In this document: piece after piece, positions 28,290-31,053 of the stretch | Numbering within the stretch: position 1 is the stretch's first letter | Layout: each line of letters starts with the position of its first letter | DNA from: Candidatus Polarisedimenticolia bacterium | GTDB lineage: Bacteria; Acidobacteriota; Polarisedimenticolia; Gp22-AA2; AA152 | NCBI GenBank assembly: GCA_035764505.1 | Contig: DASTZC010000112.1 | Location: 1 to 42,498, forward strand | Length of the DNA stretch: 42,498 bases | Direction of reading: 5' to 3' | The notes under the pieces: generated by a model | What the model was told of the DNA's origin: nothing | The model's database searches: none | What the model saw: the letters and a program-made list of their open reading frames with translations, nothing else | Position numbers and translations under genes: made by a program

Positions 28290-28829
28290 ATGACACCCCG
28301 CCAGCGCCTGAGGGACCTGATCGCGGAGAAGTGCGTCCTGCGGGGCGATTTCGTCCTCGCCTCCGGCGCCCGCTCCACCGTCTACTTCGACTGCAAGCGG
28401 GCCACCCTCCATCCCGAGGGAGTGTCGCTCATCGGAGAGCTCCTCTGGGAAGCGATCGGGGCGCTCGACGTCGAGGTGGCGGCGGTTGGAGGGCCGACGA
28501 TCGGGGCCGATCCAATCGTCGGGCACCTCACGGCCCTGTCCCACATGAAGGGCAAGCCGATCGCCGCCTTCCTGGTCCGCAAGGAGGCGAAATCGCACGG
28601 CACCCGCCGCGCCATCGAGAACCCTCCTCCCGCCGGCAGCCGCGTGGTCATCTTCGAGGATGTGGTCACCAGCGGCGGATCGACATTGGACGCCATCCGC
28701 GCCGTCGAGGAGGCGGGCCTCAAAGTCGCCGCTGTTTTCTGCCTGGTGGACCGCGAGCAGGGGGGAGCCGCCGCCCTGGCCGCCTACGACTACCGCCCCC
28801 TCTTCAAGAAGTCCGAGTTCGGCCTGTAG
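28290..28829 (+). CDS. pyrE: Orotate phosphoribosyltransferase
   Basis: A 179-aa cytosolic enzyme that makes orotidine monophosphate from orotate and PRPP in pyrimidine synthesis. The PRPP-binding loop VVIFEDVVTSGGST is intact (about 114-127). GDFVLASGARSTVYFDCKRATLHPEG, AVGGPTIGADPIVGHL and FLVRKEAKSHGT are OPRT signatures, the latter with the catalytic Lys/His loop. It stands alone, divergent from the GWxTD gene, with a promoter placed so close that the message is probably leaderless. The stop codon is followed at once by a structured repeat. Confidence 0.94.
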   Translation: MTPRQRLRDLIAEKCVLRGDFVLASGARSTVYFDCKRATLHPEGVSLIGELLWEAIGALDVEVAAVGGPTIGADPIVGHLTALSHMKGKPIAAFLVRKEAKSHGTRRAIENPPPAGSRVVIFEDVVTSGGSTLDAIRAVEEAGLKVAAVFCLVDREQGGAAALAAYDYRPLFKKSEFGL

Positions 28830-29012
28830 TGTCGCGTATCAGGAATCGAGTTACATTCGGCCGTCGATCCGTCCCACCTCGCTGCGTTGCGTCTCGCTCG
28901 CGTACCGCTTTGGGTACGCGGCACTTCGTCGTGGAGCGGCCATAGGCCGCGGCGCCTTGCGATCCGGGTGGCTCGACGCCTCGGTGTTAACTCGATTTCT
29001 GATACGCAACAC
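28829..29012. repeat. MITE-like structured repeat, copy 1, with 25-bp terminal inverted repeats
   Basis: Terminal inverted repeats at 28829-28853 and 28988-29012 match at 23 of 25 positions. Next to them, GGCCGTCGATCC (left) can pair with GGCTCGACGCC (right), lengthening the stem. Inside are two hairpins: GCGTACC/GGTACGC (28900-28919, 6-base loop) and GCGGCC/GGCCGC (28936-28950, 3-base loop). The core 28857-28994 recurs in direct orientation at 30196-30334, about 85% identical by eye. No open frame shows coding character. It starts on the last base of the pyrE stop codon. Confidence 0.8.
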
Positions 29013-29033
29013 AAGCAGCTTGGGTAACGGCGC

Positions 29034-30194
29034 ATGAGATCCCTTTCTACGTGGATGGGCATCGGATGCTGTCTGGCGGCCTTCTTCCTGTCGGGCGCGC
29101 GGCTCGAAGCGGAGGAAGAACCTGCCTCCGCCGCGAAGGAATCCAAGTTCCGCGATCCCGAAGACGGCTGGCTGGATGTCAGCGGCTTTCTCGACCGGCC
29201 TTATGGCTTCTTTCCGCTCCTGGTCCCGATCACCGAGCCGGCGGTCGGCTACGGGGCCGCGGGCGGACTGGCCTTCATCAAGAAGAATCCGGCGGACGAC
29301 CAGCCGGGCCTGGGACGTCCCAACGTCACGATGGTCGGCGGGCTCGCCACGCAGAACGATACCTGGTCCCTGCTCGCCGGCGACTTGCGCCGCTGGCACA
29401 AGGACCGGTTCGAGACTTTCGTCGGCCTCATGAAAGGCTCCATCAATCTCGATTTCTACGGCATCGGCGAGGACGATGCCCTGCGGGACGATCCGCTTTC
29501 CTACAACCTCGCCCCCGTCGGCGGGCTGGTGCGGGGCAAGTACCGGCTGGGCAATTCGCGCGTATGGGCGGGCATGACCTACGTCCTTGCCGACATGGGA
29601 GTCGAGTTCCGGGAGGCGGGCGGAGGATTACCCGACCTCGAGAATGTCTCCCGCATCGGCGGAATCACTCCGGCCGTCACCTTCGATTCGCGCGACAACC
29701 TCTTCACCCCCAACAAGGGCACCTTCTTCGAAGGCAGCGCGAGCCTGTACGACGATTCCCTGGGGAGTGATGCCGATTTCCAGCGTGTCGGCCTGATCCT
29801 GATCCACCAGTGGTCGCTGCGGTCCGACCTGACGCTGGGAGTGCGTGGCCGCGGAGTGTTCTCCTTCGGCGACACCCCGTTCTACATGCGCCCCTTCATC
29901 ACACTGCGCGGCGCGGCGGTGCTGCGCTATCAGGGAGAGGAGGTGGCGGATGTCGAGGCGGAGGCGCGCTGGCAGTTCTGGAAGCGCTTCAGCCTGATCG
30001 GCTTCGCGGGCTCGGGCGCCACCTGGAATGATTTCGAGAGCTTCGACAACACCCTTACGGTGGTTACCGGCGGGACCGGCTTCCGCTACGAAATCGCCCG
30101 CCGCTACGGGCTGCACGCCGGGCTTGACGTCGCTTTCGGGCCGGACAATCCGGCGATCTACGTCATCTTTGGCAGCGCCTGGCTGAGGCCGTAG
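29034..30194 (+). CDS. BamA/TamA-like outer-membrane beta-barrel (surface antigen D15 family)
   Basis: A 386-aa protein with a signal peptide (MGIGCCLAAFFLSGARLEA) and a beta-barrel typical of the bacterial surface antigen family, without POTRA domains. Strand-like repeats of alternating hydrophobic residues run from about 60 to the end. The pattern GGITPAVTFDSRDNLFTPNKGTFFEGSASLYD is a signature of the family barrel (TxDSRDNxxxPxxGxxxxxxxxxyd). The end GLHAGLDVAFGPDNPAIYVIFGSAW supplies the last strands. Lack of POTRA domains suggests a porin-like or specialised role rather than general barrel assembly. The gene lies between two direct copies of a structured repeat and looks like a single-gene unit. 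Confidence 0.83.
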   Translation: MRSLSTWMGIGCCLAAFFLSGARLEAEEEPASAAKESKFRDPEDGWLDVSGFLDRPYGFFPLLVPITEPAVGYGAAGGLAFIKKNPADDQPGLGRPNVTMVGGLATQNDTWSLLAGDLRRWHKDRFETFVGLMKGSINLDFYGIGEDDALRDDPLSYNLAPVGGLVRGKYRLGNSRVWAGMTYVLADMGVEFREAGGGLPDLENVSRIGGITPAVTFDSRDNLFTPNKGTFFEGSASLYDDSLGSDADFQRVGLILIHQWSLRSDLTLGVRGRGVFSFGDTPFYMRPFITLRGAAVLRYQGEEVADVEAEARWQFWKRFSLIGFAGSGATWNDFESFDNTLTVVTGGTGFRYEIARRYGLHAGLDVAFGPDNPAIYVIFGSAWLRP

Positions 30195-30195
30195 C

Positions 30196-30334
30196 TCGGC
30201 CGCCGATCCATCCCGCCTCGCTGCGTTGCGTCTCGCTTGCGTAGCCGCATGGATACGCGGCGCTTCGTCGTGGAGCGGCCATGGGCCGCGGCGCCTTGCG
30301 ATCCGGGCGGCTCCGCGGCCTGGTGTCAACTGGA
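30196..30334. repeat. Structured repeat, copy 2 (left end missing)
   Basis: Direct copy of the core of the 28829-29012 element, starting 2 bp after a stop codon. Hairpin 2 (GCGGCC/GGCCGC, 30275-30289) is identical in its stem; hairpin 1 (30239-30258) keeps GCGTA/TACGC and CC/GG around one mismatch although its sequence has changed. The flanking GGCCGC/GCGGCC pairing is also kept by changes on both sides. The left terminal repeat is absent and the right one is only partly recognisable. Confidence 0.75.
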
Positions 30335-30371
30335 TACACGATGCACCGTCGCGCCCTGGTCTTCGCAAAAG

Positions 30372-30400
30372 AAAAAAGCCGCCGGAGAGGCTCCGGCGGC
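30372..30400 (-). terminator. Rho-independent terminator of the DUF4382 gene
   Basis: A perfect 10-bp stem GCCGCCGGAG/CTCCGGCGGC (30378-30387 with 30391-30400), a 3-base loop and, on the minus strand, a run of six T (30377 down to 30372). It lies 24 bp beyond the end of the minus-strand gene. Confidence 0.9.
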
Positions 30401-30423
30401 TTTCCAGTGGTTGCCCTAGGGGA

Positions 30424-31053
30424 TCAGTCGTCCTCTCCGTGTGTATCGCAGTCGAAGTTGGGGAAGAAGTGGAAATCCCCGTCCACGTCGTCGAAGGCGT
30501 GATCCGGATTGAAGCGCAGCTCGATGACCGTGGTCTGCCCGTCGACGACTTCGAAAGTCTGCACCGGGATGATCTTCGTCCAGCCGCCGCCCGGAGGCGT
30601 CAGGTCGATCTTCGCACCGTCGGTGAACACGAACTGCACATGCGTGATCACCACGACAAACTGATCGTACATGCCTGCCGGCAGCGTGCCGGCGGGCAGG
30701 CTCACCTCGTGGCCGTTGATGACCGGAATCAGATCCACCGTCTGCGGCAGGGTGGTCGACAGATTGACCAGGTCGCCGTTCAGGTTGCGGGCCAGCAGGC
30801 TCGAGAAGGTGACGTTGGCCTGGGACAGCCGCGACAGCATGCCGCCGTCATCGTCGCCCCAGCTGCTCCCGCCCGCAGCCACGGCATCCGTCGTGGCGCC
30901 CGACACGACGCCCGTGGTGGCCGGTGCCGACGTGAGCATGACTCGCACGTTACCGGTGCGCGAATTCGACTCTCCGTGGTTGGAGGAGCAGGCGGCGACC
31001 GTCAACGCCAGGCTCAGGATGAGAAAGGTCCGGATCCAGCGGCTCGAGATCAT
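30424..31053 (-). CDS. DUF4382-type lipoprotein
   Basis: A 209-aa lipoprotein: signal peptide with lipobox LTVAAC, then GNVRVMLTSAPA, which resembles the opening strand of DUF4382 (xVxVxLTDAPx). Later parts also fit that beta-sandwich family: LVNLSTTLPQTVDLIPVINGHEVSLPAGTLPAGMYDQFVVVI, then VQTFEVVDGQTTVIELRFNPDHAF. The C terminus is acidic and His-rich (DDVDGDFHFFPNFDCDTHGEDD), which might bind metal ions. A Gly/Ser/Asp-rich loop near residue 62 replaces the usual calcium-like segment. Function unknown. It has its own terminator. Confidence 0.72.
   Translation of the reverse strand: MISSRWIRTFLILSLALTVAACSSNHGESNSRTGNVRVMLTSAPATTGVVSGATTDAVAAGGSSWGDDDGGMLSRLSQANVTFSSLLARNLNGDLVNLSTTLPQTVDLIPVINGHEVSLPAGTLPAGMYDQFVVVITHVQFVFTDGAKIDLTPPGGGWTKIIPVQTFEVVDGQTTVIELRFNPDHAFDDVDGDFHFFPNFDCDTHGEDD

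Follow-up and report, generated by a model that had tools for sequence, protein, structure and literature searches.

The 42,498-nucleotide stretch analyzed here (the window) contains two direct copies of a structured repeat, one on either side of a gene and each at the stop codon of the gene that precedes it. This arrangement raises the questions of whether the repeats are a signal belonging to two neighboring messages or copies of a mobile element and of why they lie so precisely where reading frames end. A preliminary description, made from the sequence alone, had proposed a MITE-like repeat with 25-bp terminal inverted repeats and had considered a hairpin-based mobile element, selection on the folded form, and a REP-like role.

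Two structured repeats at gene ends

Copy 1 (28829 to 29012, plus strand) is a full-length element of a 184-bp form. Its left terminal inverted repeat, GTGTCGCGTATCAGGAATCGAGTTA (28829 to 28853, plus strand), is an IS630-type end, and the right one (28988 to 29012, plus strand) ends in CGCAACAC; each is 25 nt long, with 134 nt in between, and they are 92% complementary, so the terminal repeats proposed earlier are real. The copy folds at -104.3 kcal/mol (z = -6.7), as good a value being reached in 0 of 200 shuffles, and the shape is a single long imperfect hairpin spanning the whole element. In place of the two inner hairpins of the preliminary description, it contains one small extra hairpin, GCGGCC-ATA-GGCCGC (28936 to 28950, plus strand), inside the stretch that separates the 184-bp form from a 164-bp form and present in the former only. 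Cores alone fold far less exceptionally than full copy 1 (z = -0.9 to -2.3). The exchange of one pairing for another between copies, GTCGA/TCGAC against GGCCGC/GCGGCC, is present in the sequence as described.

Copy 2 (30196 to 30335, plus strand) aligns without gaps to positions 28857 to 28996 of copy 1 at 86% identity over 140 nt. It has lost its left terminal repeat, as the preliminary description had observed, and the right one is decayed. A search of the window with a 20-mer of the core, allowing up to 3 mismatches, returned only the two copy sites, with 0.02 expected.

Both copies adjoin stop codons in the manner first reported. The TAG (28827 to 28829) of a phosphoribosyltransferase gene, pyrE (28290 to 28829, plus strand), consists of the left target TA (28827 to 28828, plus strand) and the first G of copy 1, and the TAG (30192 to 30194, plus strand) of the second gene (29034 to 30194, plus strand) lies one base before copy 2. 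This second gene encodes a 386-aa protein with no Pfam match, which leaves its earlier label of BamA-like unsupported. No intrinsic terminator, that is, a hairpin followed by a T-run, was found at copy 1 or copy 2, and no sigma-70-like promoter was found at the element. The only strong intrinsic terminator is a separate site on the minus strand (30373 to 30405), with a 15-bp stem and a T-run, downstream of a DUF4382 gene (30424 to 31053); it overlaps a sub-threshold Rfam match to ctRNA_p42d.

A dispersed family

A covariance model search, listed by best strand, found 42 copies in the own genome (G000; 4.46 Mb in 288 contigs). There are dozens in a sister genus (G003) and fewer in G001, G006, and G396, contradicting the possibility, raised at the outset, that only two copies exist. 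Of 396 genomes examined in the phylum, only G000, G001, G003, and G006 carry the end pattern in multiple copies, and where a record with the core is named, it is an Acidobacteria MAG. Both the 184-bp and the 164-bp forms occur in the own genome, and every copy aligned from another genome is of the 164-bp kind. G003 carries a burst of about 30 near-identical copies, largely at contig ends, where recent repeats tend to fall in short-read assemblies. The repeats are a dispersed family of small noncoding mobile elements, not a local pair, with the features of MITEs: they are short and multicopy and have terminal inverted repeats, and a transposase gene is absent from the element.

Several copies depart from the full-length form. 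Decayed copies without the left terminal repeat include L202, L204, L206, L207, and L209 of G000, besides copy 2 of the window, and in several of these copies the core begins no more than about 10 nt from the stop of the upstream gene. A core-only mobile unit, considered on account of several decayed copies without either end, was set aside, as decay explains these copies and ascertainment favors the core. A second GC-rich repeat, GGCGGGTTGACCCGCGGCGGG...GCCGCCGGGTCCAAACC, lies within or adjoining the MITE ends at three loci of G003 (L151, from 327; L157, from 263; and L134), as if nested in the MITE or having the same termini. At L038 and L041 of G006 (element from 1501), the element stops at ...GATATTCGCCCT and is followed by unrelated sequence, different in each; the cause is either a recombination event at the hairpin or an assembly error.

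Insertion into CTAG

The young copies of G003 are the most informative with respect to the target. In this burst, 34 of 36 junctions read CTA/GTG from the outside in, left and right alike, a recent copy being preceded by CTA and followed by TAG. A variant of roughly 107 bp in G006 has CTAG on both sides, so a target site duplication is present in both sets. The right TA has disappeared from most old copies, and TA persists chiefly where a stop codon includes it; evidence of the duplication thus comes from the young copies. These junctions place the insertion at the TA within CTAG, with TA (or CTAG) duplicated. HUH/IS200-type insertion, which one-sided TA flanks had brought to mind, was set aside, as young copies have TA on both sides.

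Elements of the IS630 family duplicate TA (PMC2170065), and IS630 itself, according to Tenzen and Ohtsubo (1991) as cited in that paper, prefers TA in CTAG. Since CTAG is palindromic, flanks alone do not separate a 4-bp CTAG duplication, which would be IS5-like, from a 2-bp TA duplication, and the assignment to IS630 is made because the ends are alike.

Relationship to IS630 elements

In G233, a complete 1161-bp element (L188), TGTTGCGTCTCGGAAAT...ACGTCACA with CTAG on both sides, encodes a 371-aa IS630 transposase that scores 266 bits against NCBIfam NF033545 (cutoff, 100), and a 3' end of this kind also occurs in G146. The 3' ends of the two elements, which were found by searching for the MITE end pattern itself, match the consensus end at 16 of 22 positions, with a chance of about 5e-6 per site. 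Plasmids of Pseudomonadota (Pandoraea, Cupriavidus, Methylibium, Acidovorax, and Pseudomonas) carry five IS630 elements that were found via the protein and not via the ends; all start with CTAGTG at both ends, in keeping with the published target preference and TA duplication, and their ends match the MITE consensus at 11 to 15 of 22 positions. The reading frame of the G233 transposase ends in ...SETQH-stop, and the TAG at the junction serves as this stop; in the IS630 transposase genes of L188 (1501 to 2616; G233) and L190 (1501 to 1824; G146), the stop is made of the target TA and the first G of the end. The MITE thus shares with the IS630 family a GTGTYGCGTCTCNGAAAT-type terminal sequence, CTAG flanks on both sides, and an end completing a TAG stop, but it has no transposase gene, and its foldback interior is unlike a transposon interior.

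A transposase with matching ends, one of the checks suggested by the preliminary description, was found in none of the MITE carriers, with none in G000-G003 or G006; these genomes are fragmented MAGs, and the like-ended element of G233 is in another genome of the phylum. Neither DDE_3 (PF13358) nor DDE_Tnp_1 (PF01609) has a match in the own genome, itself a fragmented MAG; multicopy insertion sequences are often missing from such assemblies. Among possible partners, the IS630 genes of G003 have ends that do not match the MITE, and an IS5/IS4-type partner (PF01609) is absent from the own genome, with none in G003 having matching ends. An end-pattern match at the stop of a DegP-like gene (G012, L162) lacks a partner end and appears fortuitous, and L191 adjoins an integrase-core (rve) transposase, not an IS630 gene.

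Copy number, ends, target, recent burst, and likeness to IS630 ends directly support the mobile character first suspected, and we consider it highly probable that both repeats are nonautonomous transposons of the IS630 (Tc1/mariner-like) type, that is, MITEs. They constitute a new family whose mechanism is known in kind; judged by title and abstract, none of the few papers that a single literature search on Acidobacteria and MITEs brought up appears to describe such an element. For its movement, we infer a cut-and-paste step and a transposase supplied in trans, which would bind the terminal repeats and excise the element, to be inserted at a TA, preferably inside CTAG, with the TA duplicated. 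As both ends start with G, an element entering the TA of a stop codon would recreate TAG and leave the upstream protein intact in either orientation, and copies landing on stop codons may survive and then decay in place.

Why copies lie on stop codons

In many copies, the TAG of the gene combines the TA of the target with the G that opens the element. Placement on stop codons follows first of all from the target being CTAG: in the fetched DNA, 22 of 67 background CTAG sites lie at a gene-like stop, enough for the target by itself to bring many copies to stops. The pyrE locus offers an example of what such an insertion may do. The element-free pyrE of G003 ends in CTGTAAGC (CTG-TAA-GC), and the window reads CTG-TA-[element]-A-AGC. 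Given the three-base match beyond TA, copy 1 seems to have turned the TAA of pyrE into TAG, with the right TA duplicate having lost its T; the A at 29013 (plus strand) is probably its remnant, judging from the sister genus pyrE end, CTG-TA-AGC. For ISY100, insertions bordered by TA at one end and by A at the other have likewise been reported in vitro (PMC2170065).

Alternative explanations

Two direct copies only 1.3 kb apart could suggest that one structured 3' end was recently duplicated on the spot, around the second gene; the preliminary description had allowed for a recent local duplication. Judged on cores, with flank identities left out as products of a forced alignment, copy 2 is 93.5% identical to L002 and 90.6% identical to copy 1, several copies elsewhere are nearer to it than copy 1 is, the nearest relative of copy 1 is L004 (95%), and the two fall on different branches of the core tree. 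A local duplication is therefore barely credible, and copy 2, by its greater nearness to other copies and its separate branch, is an independent insertion at the stop of the second gene that has lost its left end. It is equally hard to believe in a REP or REPIN element moved by a RAYT (Y1 transposase), the REP-like reading of the preliminary description: the element is palindromic, mostly intergenic, and of high copy number, but Y1_Tnp (PF01797) has no match in G000 while the controls respond, the element measures 164 to 184 bp, much more than the 20 to 40 bp of REPs (PMC3733652), and it has terminal repeats of 25 bp as well as a target duplication.

Another comparison is with a structured noncoding RNA family (riboswitch, sRNA, or attenuator) that is not mobile. 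The arms do covary, with changes on both sides in 13 of 53 pairs and a score of 0.117 against 0.066 for shuffled alignments, 0 of 500 being as high, so the absence of covariation contemplated earlier is contradicted. Covariation alone, however, does not establish an RNA function, because DNA-level processes can also produce it: both ends of an element must fit one transposase, palindromes can be corrected against themselves (quasipalindrome correction), and the covariation includes the terminal repeats. Selection for a transcribed fold would be expected to tolerate G.U and not A.C mismatches and to give better folding on the transcribed strand; the arms hold 83 G.U and 56 A.C mismatches, the former not clearly in excess, and in 21 of 27 copies it is the minus strand that folds better. 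These strand tests do not favor RNA selection on the fold, and the selection proposed earlier stays a conjecture. Rfam gave only sub-threshold matches here, with no family above the cutoff, and copies lie beside unrelated genes between CTAG target flanks; a nonmobile RNA family is thus very unlikely.

A further alternative, compatible with a MITE origin, is that the element has been co-opted as a 3' untranslated hairpin, with selection keeping copies whose left end is at the stop because their transcribed hairpin would change how the message decays, is processed, or terminates. Its main evidence lies in orientation, with gene ends called by a simple codon score trained on the window genes. Stops exactly at the junction fall at the left and right ends in ratios of 9:2 for old G000 copies and 11:2 for old G003 copies (20:4 pooled), against 7:6 in the young G003 burst, and a second count gave similar figures. 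Across the unselected 42 own-genome copies, 19 have a stop at the left end only and 5 at the right end only (binomial P = 0.007), with a ratio of 12:1 for full-length copies (P = 0.003). ERIC elements located 3' of genes in Yersinia are reported to have effects that depend on orientation, and Correia elements to be processed by RNase III (PMC2229807, PMC10969869). Against co-option, degraded own copies alone give 7:4, and old G003 copies counted with a looser 45-nt window give 8:5, which is not significant. G396, as an independent replicate, has too few copies. The contrast of 20:4 with 7:6 is only suggestive, a hint of orientation-dependent retention of old copies. The strand tests described above and the lack of a T-run terminator at the element also argue against it, and an old bias in insertion orientation would give the same pattern. 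We regard co-option as possible but tentative.

Relation to known elements and implications

The terminal sequence of the Correia elements (CREE, or NEMIS) of Neisseria differs from that of the present MITE. The two are otherwise alike in being MITEs with terminal repeats of about 25 bp and TA ends, in having two size classes, set apart by an internal stretch, and in a long hairpin transcript (PMC2229807); Correia elements belong to another host phylum and are reported mostly upstream of genes (PMC10969869), whereas the present element lies at 3' ends. The ERIC (IRU) elements of enterobacteria are likewise hairpin-forming MITE-like repeats, about 127 bp long with TA ends, and in Yersinia they occur at the 3' ends of genes, where orientation matters for mRNA decay (PMC2229807, PMC10969869), but their terminal repeats are short, at 7 bp. 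Apart from the prevalence of one orientation among its older copies, the family described here is of an ordinary kind.

A simple target-site rule explains repeats lying exactly on stop codons, a placement easily mistaken for a regulatory signal. On a more speculative reading, which we think doubtful, a transposon family that inserts into CTAG and restores TAG with its first base could colonize stop codons without harm to the protein, and filtering by orientation would then leave orientation-fixed 3'-UTR hairpins throughout the genome. If so, a selfish element would have turned into a genome-wide set of such hairpins. As a recent burst and old copies occur together in G003, the step from insertion to retention, in both orientation and end decay, is measurable within one genome.
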